Below, piece after piece: positions 49,220-54,510 of a stretch of DNA of 64,000 nt. The translations under genes and the position numbers were made by a program. The stretch is taken from contig CALVBC010000006.1 in assembly GCA_944325685.1 (NCBI GenBank), positions 1-64,000 on the forward strand, in the 5' to 3' direction. The stretch is from an uncultured Erysipelotrichaceae bacterium (GTDB taxonomy: Bacteria > Bacillota_I > Bacilli_A > Erysipelotrichales > Erysipelotrichaceae). The notes under the pieces were generated by a model that was not told where the DNA came from, made no database searches, and saw only the letters and a list, made by a program, of their open reading frames with translations. Every line of letters begins with the position of its first letter. The stretch's first letter is position 1.

Positions 49220-49265
49220 AATATACCTCTCGTATTTATGACCATATATTATCATAAATTGTAAT

Positions 49266-49298
49266 AACACCGGTATTTTTGTTAATTAGATCGGTGTT
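49266..49298. other. Inverted repeat upstream of transketolase genes
   Basis: AACACCG (49266-49272) / CGGTGTT (49292-49298). Could be an operator or the weak terminator of the regulator genes. No promoter boxes recognised with confidence. Confidence 0.3.
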
Positions 49299-49324
49299 TT
49301 GATCAAGATGAGCATGCACGACGT

Positions 49325-49362
49325 GGAATTTCGGCAAATTTTCTATTTTTTGCCGATTTTCC
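49325..49362. other. Hairpin downstream of the MerR/GyrI-like gene
   Basis: GGAA..TCGGCAAA (49325-49338) / TTTGCCGA..TTCC (49349-49362). Long stem without a proper T-run in the minus direction; probable weak transcript end. Confidence 0.4.
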
Positions 49363-49412
49363 ATCTTATGTTTTTATTACGCCCAAACCATTGATATCTT
49401 ATCTTCTTGATA

Positions 49413-49988
49413 TCACTCGATCGGTATCGCAAACTTCGTAAAATAGCGATCAGGATCGATCTCCTTTCCATAGAATGGTCCAATGACCGCTTCTACTCTA
49501 ATAGGCCCTTTAGGACTTATATCAAGCTCTTTGAGCGTCTTATTTATATATCCCCATACCTTAGCATCCTCATCATAATGACCATAGACATAAAAGACTA
49601 AAGCCCTGATCTTCTTTAATACGATCGCATCATTTGGCACTTTCTTATCTTCGATCGGGACACATACATAGGAGATATCTTTATCATGTACAAGATAAAA
49701 GGATATCGGTGCTAGTGATAGACCTCTTTCGATGCATTCATCTAAAAAGTCCGCTGATGCCTTACATGAATCTTTGACATCATGTCGATCAAATGGTTTA
49801 TATACACATAGCACTTCTGGTAACTCTTCGATACGATATGTCATATCAAGGTCTTTAGTATGCCTTTTATTGAAGACCATGAACTGCGTCTTATGTCTTT
49901 CGATCCTTTCTTTTAGATGCATGATGATCTCTTTATCATCGCCACCGCTATCAAAGTAATCGATGATATCGGTATGTGATATCCACAT
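49413..49988 (-). CDS. GyrI-like effector part of a split MerR regulator
   Basis: 191 aa. Residues ~1-35 continue the MerR dimerisation helix (DYFDSGGDDKEIIMHLKERIERH) and ~50-191 form a GyrI-like small-molecule domain ending DPDRYFTKFAIPIE. It is in frame with the HTH upstream, separated by a single TAG. AAGGAG lies 9 bases before the ATG at 49988, so it could be translated by reinitiation as a free ligand-binding domain. Otherwise it is the 3' half of a nonsense-mutated gene. Confidence 0.7.
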   Translation of the reverse strand: MWISHTDIIDYFDSGGDDKEIIMHLKERIERHKTQFMVFNKRHTKDLDMTYRIEELPEVLCVYKPFDRHDVKDSCKASADFLDECIERGLSLAPISFYLVHDKDISYVCVPIEDKKVPNDAIVLKKIRALVFYVYGHYDEDAKVWGYINKTLKELDISPKGPIRVEAVIGPFYGKEIDPDRYFTKFAIPIE

Positions 49989-50015
49989 ATCGACAAACTC
50001 CTTGATCTTGAAGAT

Positions 50016-50168
50016 CTAAAGGACATTGTATATGTCATAGTATCTTCTTTTACTAGAAGGATCGATATAACACGGCTTTAAAAGACCACGCTCTTCATAG
50101 CGCATGATCGTGCTCCTCGACAACTCTGTGACCTTAGCTACTTCACTTATCCGATATAGTTCCTTCAT
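50016..50168 (-). pseudogene. MerR-type HTH interrupted by an in-frame TAG
   Basis: 50-codon N-terminal HTH: MKELYRISEVAKVTELSRST, MRYEERGLLKP and RRYYDIYNVL, then TAG (50016-50018) where the family usually has a Lys codon (..NVLKIFKIKEF), then open in frame into the next entry. A single AAG to TAG change explains it. GGAGA precedes the ATG. It overlaps the end of the GyrI-like gene upstream by 26 bases. Confidence 0.7.
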
Positions 50169-50541
50169 CATTCTCTCCGATCGGTATAGCAACCACCGAA
50201 AAGTAGTTATCAGGATCGATATTTTCCCCTAGGGTCGCCGTTGTGATAGTCGATAGGCGTGGATAGCCTATGACCTTGATATCATTATCTAAGATATAGT
50301 CGACTAGTTTATCTAAAGCTTCTTGCATGACACTATAATCCCCATAGTAAAGCATAAAAATGGCATCATACCCTTTCTCTAATACAGCACCTTTTTGATC
50401 ATAACGACAAGGTATACAGATATCATATGCGAATGGTTCATCATATATCTTCTCTAAATACTTAGACCGATAATCGATCGAAAACGGTGGCTCATCACTC
50501 AATACAATACCTTCTTTAATAAGGTCATGATAAAAGGCCAT
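50143..50541 (-). CDS. GyrI-like small-molecule-binding protein, probably 5'-truncated
   Basis: 132 aa resembling the second half of a GyrI-like domain (AFYHDLIKEGIVLSDEPPFSIDY; DAIFMLYYGDYSVMQEALDKLVDYIL; PDNYFSVVAIPIGE). Upstream sequence in a different frame reads MHDTSLRFRVL, which would continue into GPELMAFYHDL if one base were restored. So this is likely a frameshifted remnant of a longer regulator, possibly another MerR. Confidence 0.5.
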   Translation of the reverse strand: MAFYHDLIKEGIVLSDEPPFSIDYRSKYLEKIYDEPFAYDICIPCRYDQKGAVLEKGYDAIFMLYYGDYSVMQEALDKLVDYILDNDIKVIGYPRLSTITTATLGENIDPDNYFSVVAIPIGENDEGTISDK

Positions 50542-50629
50542 TAGTTCAGGACCCTAAAACGCAAAGATGTATCATGCATATCGTCGATACAAGCGCTAAA
50601 TGATCATATCTAACTCTATAAGACTACTT

Positions 50630-50659
50630 GAGATCCAGCTTATCACTGGATCTCTTTTT
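50630..50659 (+). terminator. Orphan plus-strand terminator
   Basis: GAGATCCAG - 7 bases - CTGGATCTC followed by TTTTT. Perfect 9-bp stem. No plus-strand gene is seen upstream of it, so it ends an unknown short transcript or is a relic. Confidence 0.75.
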
Positions 50660-50710
50660 CATACTATCAGCCATTTTCAAGATGGTGTACTATACAGACC
50701 AATTCAGGCA

Positions 50711-50762
50711 AAAGTAGACTTTGAAAGTAGACTTTAAGTATACTTTGAAGCAGACTTTGAAA
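50711..50762. repeat. Four short tandem repeats, 11-13 bp spacing
   Basis: Core G(T/C)A(G/T)ACTTT at 50714, 50727, 50738 and 50750. The first two lie in AAAGTAGACTTT-type near-palindromes. About one helical turn apart, as in a multi-site operator. Confidence 0.75.
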
Positions 50763-50799
50763 TTTGACCATCAAATCGATCCTATTTTTCACCTATCAT

Positions 50800-51699
50800 C
50801 TACAGAGCTAAATAGTAAAAATAGATATTGCCATTAGGATCTTCTAGACGGTATGGATATCCATCATCCCAATCGACAAACCCCTTCATTTTATCTCTTA
50901 AATCATCGATGCTGACCTCATTATCGCCATCATATATCTTGAGACCATATTCTTGCATATCTCTTTCAAGACTATCTATACTTCCTGTGCTTCTTCTAAG
51001 ATCGTATTCGCCAATACATTCTATGTTGATACTCTCATCGATGTATTTTAGCGGTACATAATACATGCGACTAGCCACGACATTGCTACCAGCATAGTAG
51101 ATATTTTCGTAAGGGATAGAAGTAGCACTCAAAACATCTGAATATATCTCATAAAAGACATTATCATCAACATAATACGCTTTGGTAATGTCGCCCTTAT
51201 AAACATATAGTTCATCGAAATCCTGCATTATATAGGTTGTATCACTCTTATCATCTTCGATATAAAGATAGACATATTGATCATAACCATAAAATTCATC
51301 TTTGAAAGTATCATAATATGTTAATGACTCTGCTTCCTTTTCATCGATAAGACCAACTTCATTAAAGCGACCAATGATATTTCTGATGATATCCTCATTT
51401 TTGATGTCTATACGAAGAAAAGCATTATCATATGCATGATATTTAGTATCATAGCTTACGATAAAAGCCATCTCTTTGATATCACCAAGATCCGTTATCA
51501 CATCACTGACTTTATTGATGCCTTCGGGTAGAGCCTTAGGTGTCGGCATTTCTGATAGCTGATCTGGTAGCTTATTTGATGGCGGAGAAACTGCAGGTTT
51601 CGGTGTAGACGATGGCTTTATTATATCTTCACTTTTATCGCAACCAAACAGGCTTGATATAAGTGCTATGACGACAAAACATTTGATAAGATATCTCAT
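50800..51699 (-). CDS. Lipoprotein of unknown function
   Basis: 299 aa. Signal peptide with lipobox SLFGC (Cys about residue 20), a Pro/Ser-rich linker (KPSSTPKPAVSPPSNKLP), then a ~250-residue surface domain of alternating strands (MAFIVSYDTKYHAYDNAFLRI; YVYLYIEDDKSDTTYIMQDFDELYVYKGD). No known family. SD AGGAGG before the ATG at 51699. It follows the cysteine-protease-like gene on the same strand across a 102-base gap holding a long hairpin. Confidence 0.75.
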   Translation of the reverse strand: MRYLIKCFVVIALISSLFGCDKSEDIIKPSSTPKPAVSPPSNKLPDQLSEMPTPKALPEGINKVSDVITDLGDIKEMAFIVSYDTKYHAYDNAFLRIDIKNEDIIRNIIGRFNEVGLIDEKEAESLTYYDTFKDEFYGYDQYVYLYIEDDKSDTTYIMQDFDELYVYKGDITKAYYVDDNVFYEIYSDVLSATSIPYENIYYAGSNVVASRMYYVPLKYIDESINIECIGEYDLRRSTGSIDSLERDMQEYGLKIYDGDNEVSIDDLRDKMKGFVDWDDGYPYRLEDPNGNIYFYYLAL

Positions 51700-51730
51700 A
51701 ATGAACCTCCTCTATTTTTAATTCAAAATT

Positions 51731-51776
51731 GCAACAAACTTCATCATATGATTTAGTCAATGATGAAGTATGTTGC
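51731..51776. other. Long hairpin between protease-like and lipoprotein genes
   Basis: GCAACAAACTTCATCA / TGATGAAGTATGTTGC, 15 of 16 pairs. TTTT follows on the plus side, AATTTTG on the minus side: a partial terminator or mRNA-stabilising stem. Confidence 0.6.
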
Positions 51777-51801
51777 TTTTATAGTTTGATGTAAATTAAA
51801 T

Positions 51802-52875
51802 TTAACCTATATATACTAGATAGTAACCGTGGATATTAGTTCCATTCCAGGCGATGGTAACATTTGTTGATGAACTACTATTCGGATCTTTTACTATTGT
51901 ATAACTAGAATATAGTATTGCTGGATATTGTGGATTATATGTTATGTAATAACCGACACAAGCAGTTGCATGATTAATAGATGCCAAGATCTCAGCATTA
52001 AACATCATTACCATTGGACAGTTATCGTCAATCTCATCTATGATCGTAAAGAATGTCAAATCGCCCCAAAATCCATCACCTCTTGTTGAGATCTTTGGCG
52101 TTGAATAATTTGAACCAAAGGTGTTTATGGCATTCCTCGCTATTACGTCACCACCATAGCATGGTACATCTCCGTTACACATATAACTATTAATTTTATT
52201 TCTTATTGAATAGATATTGGTCATGCTTAAAGTGATCGTACCAATATTATGAAGATACTTTAAACACATTGCCATCGATGTCGGTATACAATCGCTTTCT
52301 CTTTGTGTTATAAATTCGAACTCAGTATCAAGATCATCGATATAACCATATCTTTCTTCTGTTGGAACAGCTCTTGTTGTTGCATCGGAATATTCCAGAC
52401 CACCAAAGAAATCATAAACATAAAGATCTTCAGGATTTACCGATCTATCAGTAACTATATCTCTAAGATCACCAGTATCAAAGATCGAAAGTAATCCTAT
52501 AGTAGATTCTTTAACATAATAATTTAATGGGCTCGTATAAACGATCTTGCTAGTTTTATCAATTCCTTTATAAGGTGAAGCTTTATCATATGATGCTTCA
52601 GCTACCATTGTATAAGTGCCGTTAGATAAAACAATTCCGTAACCTTCTTTTTGACCATTACTTAGTTCAAAAAGATATCCATGCTCTTCTAGATTCTCAT
52701 CATAAACTTCACGTTGGTCATATATATCAAATCCTAACCAATGTGGGTCAGCGCCATCAATGAAATATTCCATTGTTTGTCTGCACTCTTCCAAACCGAT
52801 ATCATCAGCCTTAACGACAAATCCAGTAGTCAAAATAATCGTAAATACTATTAATAAACTAATGATCTTTTTCAT
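51802..52875 (-). CDS. Secreted papain-like cysteine protease (C39-like)
   Basis: 357 aa. Signal peptide (1-23, ending VVKA), a propeptide-like region (about 24-170, GYGIVLSNGTYTMVAEASY) and a catalytic domain: SDCIPTSMAMCLKYL with Cys196, INHATACVGYY with His302 and VKDPN with Asp330, the Cys-His-Asp order of C39_2/C10-type enzymes. Ile follows the Cys where Gly is usual. Substrate unknown. It lies 12 bases after the small peptide gene and is probably co-transcribed with it. Confidence 0.75.
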   Translation of the reverse strand: MKKIISLLIVFTIILTTGFVVKADDIGLEECRQTMEYFIDGADPHWLGFDIYDQREVYDENLEEHGYLFELSNGQKEGYGIVLSNGTYTMVAEASYDKASPYKGIDKTSKIVYTSPLNYYVKESTIGLLSIFDTGDLRDIVTDRSVNPEDLYVYDFFGGLEYSDATTRAVPTEERYGYIDDLDTEFEFITQRESDCIPTSMAMCLKYLHNIGTITLSMTNIYSIRNKINSYMCNGDVPCYGGDVIARNAINTFGSNYSTPKISTRGDGFWGDLTFFTIIDEIDDNCPMVMMFNAEILASINHATACVGYYITYNPQYPAILYSSYTIVKDPNSSSSTNVTIAWNGTNIHGYYLVYIG

Positions 52876-52887
52876 TTCTTCCTCCTT

Positions 52888-53088
52888 TTAATTAAACCAA
52901 ACGTCAGGGTCTATTAATTCTCTTGTATCAATCTCAATGTCTTTATTATCTTCAAGATCACTATTTGTTATTATCTCAATATGCTCATAGTGGCATTTAT
53001 TATTTTCGCTAAGTACATCATTATCGAGGCATGTTTGATTAGTAAATAATGTAATGACCACATGAGCTACGATCAGTATTTTAAACAT
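52888..53088 (-). CDS. Small secreted peptide, possible pheromone precursor
   Basis: 66 aa: hydrophobic N-terminal signal (MFKILIVAHVVITLFT), a polar acidic middle (NDVLSENNKCHYEHI; SDLEDNKDIEIDTREL) and the C-terminus IDPDVWFN. GGGGGA precedes the ATG. Located between an HTH-TPR regulator and a secreted protease-like gene, the position of a signalling peptide in RRNPP systems. Could equally be a protease inhibitor or propeptide-like partner. Confidence 0.6.
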   Translation of the reverse strand: MFKILIVAHVVITLFTNQTCLDNDVLSENNKCHYEHIEIITNSDLEDNKDIEIDTRELIDPDVWFN

Positions 53089-53111
53089 ATACCATCCCCC
53101 TTTTCGATTCC

Positions 53112-53140
53112 ATGATAAAAATAATCAATGAATGATTCAA
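53112..53140 (-). promoter_or_regulatory. Promoter of the peptide-protease operon
   Basis: On the minus strand TTGAAT (53135-53140) - 17 bases - TATCAT (53112-53117). The spacer holds an AATCA/TGATT inverted repeat (53124-53137), a likely operator. Confidence 0.5.
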
Positions 53141-53205
53141 CAAAACTATAAAAAATCGGCTTTTTACTTTATGGAAGGTCTGAAAAATGCTCAAAATTAA
53201 ACTTT

Positions 53206-54453
53206 TTATAAACTACAAACTTCTTTGAATCTGTGTAGTTTAGAATATGCTTTAGTCTTAGATACAAGATCAGATAGATCATCAAATAAGATCTTTTTTA
53301 CTTCATCACCACCAAAATTAGCAACTTCCACAAGATCGTCTAATATAATGTCTTCAAGATCGTTGTAGTATTTCTTTCCTTTGTGGATAGAATGATACTT
53401 TTCTTTGTAATACTTGGTAACTAATTTTTCATAGTGATTATTGATGGCGTATACATCAATGTCATATAAATACGCTTTTAATTTATCTTTGTGATCTGTC
53501 CTTTCTAATGCATCAAAATACAGGATCATCCTAATACCACGATTATTACCATATTTGATAGATTCGTCAAAAAACGCTATTGCTTTATCATAATCTTTAA
53601 GGCTATACGCGATTATCGCTGCTTGCCCATAAAGATCATTTCTCATCGGGTCACTTATATCGATCCTCTTTGCTATATCTAAGCAACGATCGATATAACT
53701 TTGCGCCTTATCAAACATATTCATATCGGCAAACAACAATGCATAGCAATCATAGATCAAATAACCATGATAAAGCGATCTATTTTGATCTATCTCATTA
53801 AGTTTATCTAATACATACGACAAACTATTTTGGCCATAAAAAAGACGTCTCAATCGCAATGGAAACAAAAATTCTTCATTAGGATATTCATCAAGCGATC
53901 CAAATAGTGACATCCTAACATCCATCAGTTCCTTGAACTGCGACGAAACAGAGATCAGTAAATATAGACATATCATCTTATCTTCTTTAGCCAAATGATC
54001 TTTTAGATAATGATAGACATGGACATTCTCTTTACTAGGATATCTCTTTTCTAATATAAAGATCACGATATCTCGATACATCGAGAGCAACTCTCTCAAA
54101 TAAAGCGTCTTATCGTATGCTTTCAGCTTCTTTTCTATTGCATTTAGATCTTCTTTTAATCTAGTAGCTGATAAATCAGTTATGTCTGTCATTAACTTCT
54201 TACGTAATCTATATAGTTCACTATATTTATCCGCCGCTAAGGTAACATCAAGACCCAGATTCTTTGCTAAACGATAGTAAAAATCGTCCCTTGATGATTT
54301 TCCGCTTTCGATCGATCTCAATGTCGAAAATGTACATATCGCACCATTATCATCATTCATCATTTCTTTGATCGTCATCAGCTTGTTCTTTCGATAGTAG
54401 GCTATAAGTAAGCCAATGGTACCTTTTTCGTAGTTTAGTCTCTCAATCATCAT
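53206..54453 (-). CDS. HTH-XRE regulator with TPR-like C-terminus (RRNPP-type, tentative)
   Basis: About 415 aa. An XRE-type HTH (about 10-65: GLLIAYYRKNKLMTIKEMMN...FSTLRSIESGKSSRDDFYYRLAKNLGLD) is followed by ~340 residues of helical TPR-like repeats (DMNMFDKAQSYIDRCLDIAK; LKDYDKAIAFFDESIKY), the layout of Rgg/PlcR peptide-sensing regulators. Start chosen at 54453 (or 54450); the longer frame reaches into the ABC gene. No SD; an extended -10 box TGTTAAAAT sits 5-8 bases upstream. More AT-rich than its neighbours. Confidence 0.8.
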   Translation of the reverse strand: MMIERLNYEKGTIGLLIAYYRKNKLMTIKEMMNDDNGAICTFSTLRSIESGKSSRDDFYYRLAKNLGLDVTLAADKYSELYRLRKKLMTDITDLSATRLKEDLNAIEKKLKAYDKTLYLRELLSMYRDIVIFILEKRYPSKENVHVYHYLKDHLAKEDKMICLYLLISVSSQFKELMDVRMSLFGSLDEYPNEEFLFPLRLRRLFYGQNSLSYVLDKLNEIDQNRSLYHGYLIYDCYALLFADMNMFDKAQSYIDRCLDIAKRIDISDPMRNDLYGQAAIIAYSLKDYDKAIAFFDESIKYGNNRGIRMILYFDALERTDHKDKLKAYLYDIDVYAINNHYEKLVTKYYKEKYHSIHKGKKYYNDLEDIILDDLVEVANFGGDEVKKILFDDLSDLVSKTKAYSKLHRFKEVCSL

Positions 54454-54458
54454 AATAT

Positions 54459-54467
54459 ATTTTAACA
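54459..54467 (-). promoter_or_regulatory. Extended -10 promoter of the HTH-TPR gene (leaderless)
   Basis: TGTTAAAAT on the minus strand, 5 bases before ATG 54453 and 8 before ATG 54450. Confidence 0.45.
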
Positions 54468-54473
54468 CAGATG

Positions 54474-54510
54474 CCCTAAAGAAAAGGTCGACCTTGCGGT
54501 CTGACCTTTT
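54474..54510 (-). terminator. Terminator of the ABC exporter genes
   Basis: On the minus strand AAAAGGTC...GACCTTTTCTTT, with an inner GACC/GGTC pair. Starts within the stop codon of the gene at 54509. Confidence 0.8.

Follow-up and report, generated by a model that had tools for sequence, protein, structure and literature searches.

Systems of the RRNPP type have been described by a signature of five criteria: a propeptide of 10–100 amino acids (aa), a Sec signal or a known alternative, a receptor of 250–500 aa, a TPR domain, usually with an N-terminal helix-turn-helix (HTH), and genes lying −60 to 400 bp apart (PMC10075063). Among the closest described cases, RopB–SIP–SpeB of Streptococcus pyogenes and S. 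porcinus unites an HTH-TPR regulator, a tiny peptide gene, and a secreted cysteine protease (PMC10518010), and PlcR–PapR–NprB of the Bacillus cereus group combines a receptor with an adjoining exported propeptide and with NprB, a protease reported to mature PapR (PMC4701985). Here, a stretch of 64,000 nucleotides from an uncultured Erysipelotrichaceae bacterium (assembly GCA_944325685.1, contig CALVBC010000006.1, positions 1 to 64,000; henceforth the window) was analysed, in which four consecutive minus-strand genes encode an HTH-TPR regulator, a 66-aa peptide, a secreted cysteine protease, and a lipoprotein. All four were found where an initial annotation of the sequence had placed them. We consider it fairly probable (roughly 0.68) that the block is an RRNPP-type peptide-responsive regulatory cassette acquired by this lineage, with the signalling cycle proposed below. 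The best reading of its components is a new RRNPP-like subfamily, missed by curated family libraries and equipped with a swappable secreted protease cargo.

Measured against the signature, the peptide (66 aa), the receptor (415 aa), the spacing (the peptide open reading frame (ORF) starts 117 bp past the regulator gene), and the TPR domain all lie within the described ranges; for the Sec signal, the leaders of related peptides are clear by a simple rule, whereas the window leader is interrupted by a His. Membership is thus supported on four criteria (the two lengths, the spacing, and the TPR domain), and the cassette would work like an RRNPP system. An AlphaFold2 model of the regulator, computed from an alignment of 24 relatives, reached a predicted local distance difference test (pLDDT) score of 94.4 and a predicted template modelling (pTM) score of 0.89, and consists of an N-terminal HTH followed by a TPR-like superhelix of about nine helix pairs. 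The HTH and TPR-like repeats that had been read from the letters alone are therefore borne out by the model, and the structure prediction that had been proposed as a check returned a TPR-like superhelix, where the lack of a TPR groove was to count against a peptide receptor. In Foldseek searches with this model, the sole solved structures with E <0.001 were PlcR:PapR7:DNA (3u3w, E 2e-4) and ComR (E 7e-4), with Rap-pheromone complexes and NprR-NprX ranking lower, amid generic TPR proteins. By profile, a HipB-type HTH was picked up at positions 14–74, Pfam HTH models gave no match to the window regulator, and Pfam TPR_2 was visible below the Pfam cut-offs (E 1.4e-5); Pfam and NCBIfam barely detect the protein. 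RRNPP_detector asks for a TPR match at 1e-5 (PMC10075063), which the TPR_2 value narrowly misses, a possible reason that systems of this kind have been overlooked.

A scan of the genome contigs with the window regulator alone returned no match, and alignment A1 held no conserved stretch usable for scanning. A small regulator alignment yielded three loci, Traorella massiliensis and an uncultured Erysipelotrichaceae among them, and the regulator profile recovered 22 core copies (defined by E <1e-33) in 16 of 273 genomes, plus more distant copies. Neighbourhoods were read for the 18 core copies whose flanks lie on the contig. Fourteen of these have a small leader-bearing ORF nearby (or shared in tandem Traorella pairs), so that homologous regulators mostly stand beside a small gene, rather than consistently without one, the outcome that had been named as unfavourable. 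The relatives' peptides are 41–84 aa long with clear hydrophobic leaders, and most close on a C-terminal Cys pair and a Trp (SPECWGV, TPDCWL, KDCTNCWLP); tails beside core regulators were TPDCWL, TLDCWGND, SPECWGV, SPECWGI, IGICW, TNCWLP, and PRSCW, as well as GCGFFCE, GCWFNCE, GCMFNCDEG, and CIVDCY. Partners of more distant receptors are shorter, ending in CSSPDCMWQ, CSSPDCMFQ, CTAPDCMFG, CSFPECGFGG, CGYPECDFGSY, CILWEC, CLFDECG, or DSPECLDID. Neither peptides nor receptors fall in a curated family.

The association of peptide and receptor was quantified in two ways. Across 410 kb of loci, intergenic leader-bearing small ORFs with a Cys-pair tail numbered 17 within 600 bp of a regulator, one overlapping a regulator, and one elsewhere, the last preceding a C39 protease. 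As a second approach, one that does not start from the surroundings of regulators, all 273 genomes were searched with a profile built from ten peptides. Apart from the known peptides, its strong matches (E <1e-8) were three new ones, found in G002, G004, and G240; each of these genomes also encodes the regulator. As the regulator is present in 7 of the 264 genomes that did not feed the profile, the hypergeometric probability of this result is about 1.2e-5 (computed by hand). The value for all twelve genomes (6.5e-18) is partly circular, nine of the twelve having fed the profile, and was not used. The new peptides of G002 and G004 directly precede secreted C39-family proteases.

Other features were noted around these genes. 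In L090 (G200), two 40-aa leader peptides ending in SAAIS(H/P)SRIHIKV lie at 497–835 behind two tandem HTH-TPR regulators and are candidates for a second, Cys-free type of propeptide in Erysipelotrichaceae. In the genus Traorella (L018, L019, L150), a 130-aa XRE protein adjoins the peptide gene, and a common ACGAAAAATGGAAAAA-like upstream motif may be an operator; across the divergent upstream regions as a whole, no common operator could be defined. Thioredoxin-like secreted proteins stand immediately behind Cys-bearing peptides in L020 and L069, suggesting control of disulfide state, and in L151 and L152 (G002 and G004) one run of genes encodes the peptide, a C39-family protease, a small secreted protein, and an ABC transporter.

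The window protease matches Pfam Peptidase_C39_2 above the cut-off (E 1.7e-6), and seven relatives all share Cys196 and His302, six of them having Asp330 as well, in agreement with the catalytic residues first proposed; its AlphaFold2 model was poor (pLDDT 49). The lipoprotein has the lipobox LFGC, consistent with its initial designation, and neither Pfam nor NCBIfam matched it. A second full cassette lies on contig 11 of the same genome (L063) and comprises a regulator, a divergent 74-aa peptide (KDCTNCWLP), a C39-like protease, and a lipoprotein. The L063 and window regulators fall in different supported clades, so the C39 pairing is either ancestral or moved between clades; between the two lipoproteins no relatedness was detectable. 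Overall, nine loci have a secreted protease behind the peptide, which is C39-like in the window, L063, L071, L068, L151, and L152, and an M10 matrixin, in each case then followed by a lipoprotein, in L066, L069, and L070. Lipoproteins stand behind the protease in most protease cassettes and differ in sequence, those behind M10 proteases being mutually related. C39 matches in G116:C200 and G206 were not counted as proteases, as they fall inside predicted lipoproteins. Receptor–peptide pairs of Traorella and G209 have no adjoining protease. Since proteases vary between C39-like, M10, and none, the receptor–peptide pair is taken as the core and the proteases as swappable cargo. The peptide-controlled protease module first proposed for the window is thereby supported, by this core and by the second cassette, and refined: the protease is exchangeable, and its control by the peptide is what we infer.

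Transfer of the cassette had been suggested from its apparent AT-richness. Among the 57 window ORFs of at least 150 aa (mean guanine and cytosine (GC) fraction 0.406, standard deviation 0.028), the regulator (0.33), the protease (0.34), and the lipoprotein (0.35) are the three lowest, which confirms the compositional contrast with the flanks. The gap between transketolase and ABC-transporter genes is 5.2 kb in the window, 168 bp in G007, and about 70 bp in G003, whose ABC proteins are 93% and 74% identical to the window's, respectively. Because both the nearer (G007) and the farther (G003) relative lack the block, a gain in the window lineage is the simpler history, and with the low GC and the empty site in two relatives the block appears to have been acquired. 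The regulator was sought in phage and plasmid collections and was found in neither, which leaves a phage or plasmid origin unsupported.

Table 1. Features of the cassette and the surrounding block, in window coordinates
Feature	Position	Strand	Basis
HTH-TPR regulator of 415 aa, putatively an intracellular receptor for peptides	53206..54453	-	AlphaFold2 model, Foldseek, profile copies in Erysipelotrichaceae
Candidate propeptide, 66 aa, C-terminus IDPDVWFN	52888..53088	-	Location, Shine-Dalgarno, N-terminus resembling a signal, collinearity with the protease gene
Secreted C39-like (papain-fold) cysteine protease with N-terminal pro-region, 357 aa	51802..52875	-	Peptidase_C39_2, conserved residues, relatives in L063, L071, L068
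Lipoprotein of unknown family, 299 aa	50800..51699	-	Lipobox LFGC
Promoter-like TTGAAT-N17-TATCAT ahead of peptide gene	53112..53140	-	Present; frequency not above chance
Strong hairpin, possible terminator or attenuator, between the protease gene and that of the lipoprotein	51731..51776	-	Folding energy versus shuffles; inverted repeat I7
5.2-kb block missing from two relatives, in which transketolase and ABC-transporter genes lie close together	49229..54482	strandless	Comparison with G007 and G003
MerR-GyrI-type regulator with in-frame TAG, inside the 5.2-kb block	49413..50192	-	One stop in otherwise continuous frame; MerR domain E 5e-10

The protease ATG lies 12 bp beyond the peptide stop codon, and the hairpin after the protease gene (−23.1 kcal/mol, z −6.9, matched by 0 of 200 shuffles) is possibly a terminator or attenuator. 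The inverted repeat claimed for the promoter spacer exists (AATCA-N5-TGATT, 53137–53123) with arms of just 5 bp. Besides the TAG-split MerR-GyrI gene, the same block holds a partial second GyrI-like copy (68-nt repeat D1, 71%), the two together lying within 49413–50541 on the minus strand.

For the window, the following cycle is proposed. The receptor, a cytoplasmic HTH-TPR protein, would be made at a low level, and the 66-aa protein would be its cognate propeptide, exported via Sec and then cut down extracellularly, leaving a short signal from its C-terminus, around IDPDVWFN. The trimmed peptide would be re-imported by an oligopeptide permease (Opp) and bound in the TPR groove, altering receptor activity at the promoter ahead of the peptide gene, such that peptide and secreted cysteine protease would rise jointly with cell density. 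Two OppA-like binding proteins are encoded in the genome, and Opp genes adjoin the cassette in G213 (L070). The lipoprotein, behind its hairpin, could serve as a partner on the cell surface, be it an inhibitor or a binding protein, and the protease could be either the output, like SpeB of RopB, or a helper in peptide maturation, like NprB for PapR. The latter option amounts to a sub-variant of the cycle, in which the linkage of peptide and protease is primary and the protease matures the peptide instead of being a regulated output. The position of the protease after the peptide in nine loci, drawn from two unrelated families, and the NprB precedent (PMC4701985) speak for it, whereas the Traorella and G209 pairs manage without an adjoining protease and the lipoprotein is left unexplained, so that we regard this variant as possible and clearly the less likely of the two.

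Several points weigh against an RRNPP-type cassette, some of them concerning the window's own peptide. The signal-like N-terminus initially ascribed to it is plausible, but is broken by the His and failed a strict simple-rule leader filter. With 11 relatives the peptide aligns weakly, retaining one aligned Cys and P-D-x-W and lacking three of four Cys; the Cys pair is absent, which places it outside the relatives' Cys-pair family (alignment A6), characterised by four conserved Cys including the C-terminal pair. The window peptide goes unrecognised by the profile of the relatives' peptides, ranking second among 1178 window ORFs with an E of 1; a score as high is reached by about 2% of decoy ORFs. 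The Cys-pair motif test was devised after the first examples had been seen, and four core regulators have no adjoining peptide (G212, G006, G214, G116:C104); in G212 a peptide–C39–lipoprotein unit sits on another contig (L068), and the regulators of G116:C104 and G214 adjoin truncated M10 remnants. Foldseek TM-scores against RRNPP proteins were modest (about 0.2–0.5), so the fold match backs the architecture, not a subfamily. The predicted promoter exists as a sequence, but such matches are no commoner than expected (30 with 9 of 12 positions in the window versus 27.1 in shuffles). The window's peptide is the weak point of the case, though its place, size, ribosome site (a good Shine-Dalgarno, AGGGGGATGGTAT-ATG), and tail (IDPDVWFN versus ..TPDCWL and ..SPECWGV of relatives) fit, and a Cys-less partner with Trp is also found in L153 (..GLYGNNWGDH).

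The same peptides could instead be effectors in themselves, disulfide-stabilised and bacteriocin-like or surface-active, with the HTH-TPR protein regulating them by another signal and the proteases processing them or helping in their secretion. Most relatives do carry four conserved Cys, look folded, and are longer than a pheromone of 5–8 residues requires, and thioredoxin-like proteins and ABC transporters adjoin some (L020, L069, L151, L152). However, the conserved unit tracks the receptor and not a dedicated exporter, the partners of distant receptors in L079, L084, L088, and L093 are cut to leader and short tail as propeptides would be, and the fold matches are peptide-sensing receptors, which makes an effector role unlikely. 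Just as improbable is a decay of the cassette in the window, in which regulator and protease were kept while the peptide lost its Cys pair and signalling ceased. Three of four Cys are indeed absent, the neighbouring MerR-GyrI genes are broken, and other loci have decayed (G116:C104, G214), but none of the four cassette frames is interrupted, the peptide retains its P-D-x-W tail, and L153 shares the Cys-less Trp-bearing design.

Returning to the RRNPP-type cassette, a broader and more tentative proposal is that Erysipelotrichaceae use RRNPP-like receptors of a large class so far not recognised, with pheromones that bear a C-terminal Cys pair (C-x2-4-C, then Trp or an acidic/aromatic tail). The pair would probably close into a disulfide ring outside the cell and be sensed in the cytoplasm once imported, secreted proteases would be exchangeable cargo, and the window system would be a Cys-less derivative; we hold this proposal to be somewhat doubtful. 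In the literature searched, which mostly did not cover subscription journals and preprints, neither RRNPP signalling in Erysipelotrichaceae nor a Cys-pair pheromone for cytoplasmic receptors was found described, in keeping with the novelty claimed at the outset for this group. If true, members of this common gut family would communicate through peptides that they import and would secrete proteases according to cell density, and a tail with Cys would represent a new type of code read by pheromone receptors in the cytoplasm. As every receptor–peptide pair points to a specific candidate, synthetic peptides offer a direct test of the idea.

Compared with described systems, the window resembles RopB–SIP–SpeB in gene content and in the proposed control of a protease by a peptide. 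SpeB belongs to peptidase family C10, whereas the window protease is C39-like, and RopB falls in the five-TPR Rgg group, whereas the array of the window receptor is longer, at about nine helix pairs. Pfam gave no C10 match on the window protease, and the combination of leaderless peptide and C10 protease that marks the RopB/LCP class is not found here. SIP is an 8-aa leaderless peptide, in contrast to the 66-aa propeptide with its signal-like leader (PMC10518010). PlcR, the best fold match (3u3w), likewise has five TPRs against the longer array of the window, with no regulator or peptide sequence match beyond the fold. NprB is a neutral metalloprotease. The receptors with HTH and nine TPRs (NprR, QssR, and AimR; clans B and C of PMC12700828) have no recognisable sequence family in common with the window, and the conserved Cys pair of its relatives is a feature not found described for these systems. 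What the window does share with them is a long TPR array, a receptor of about 400 aa, and an adjoining propeptide.

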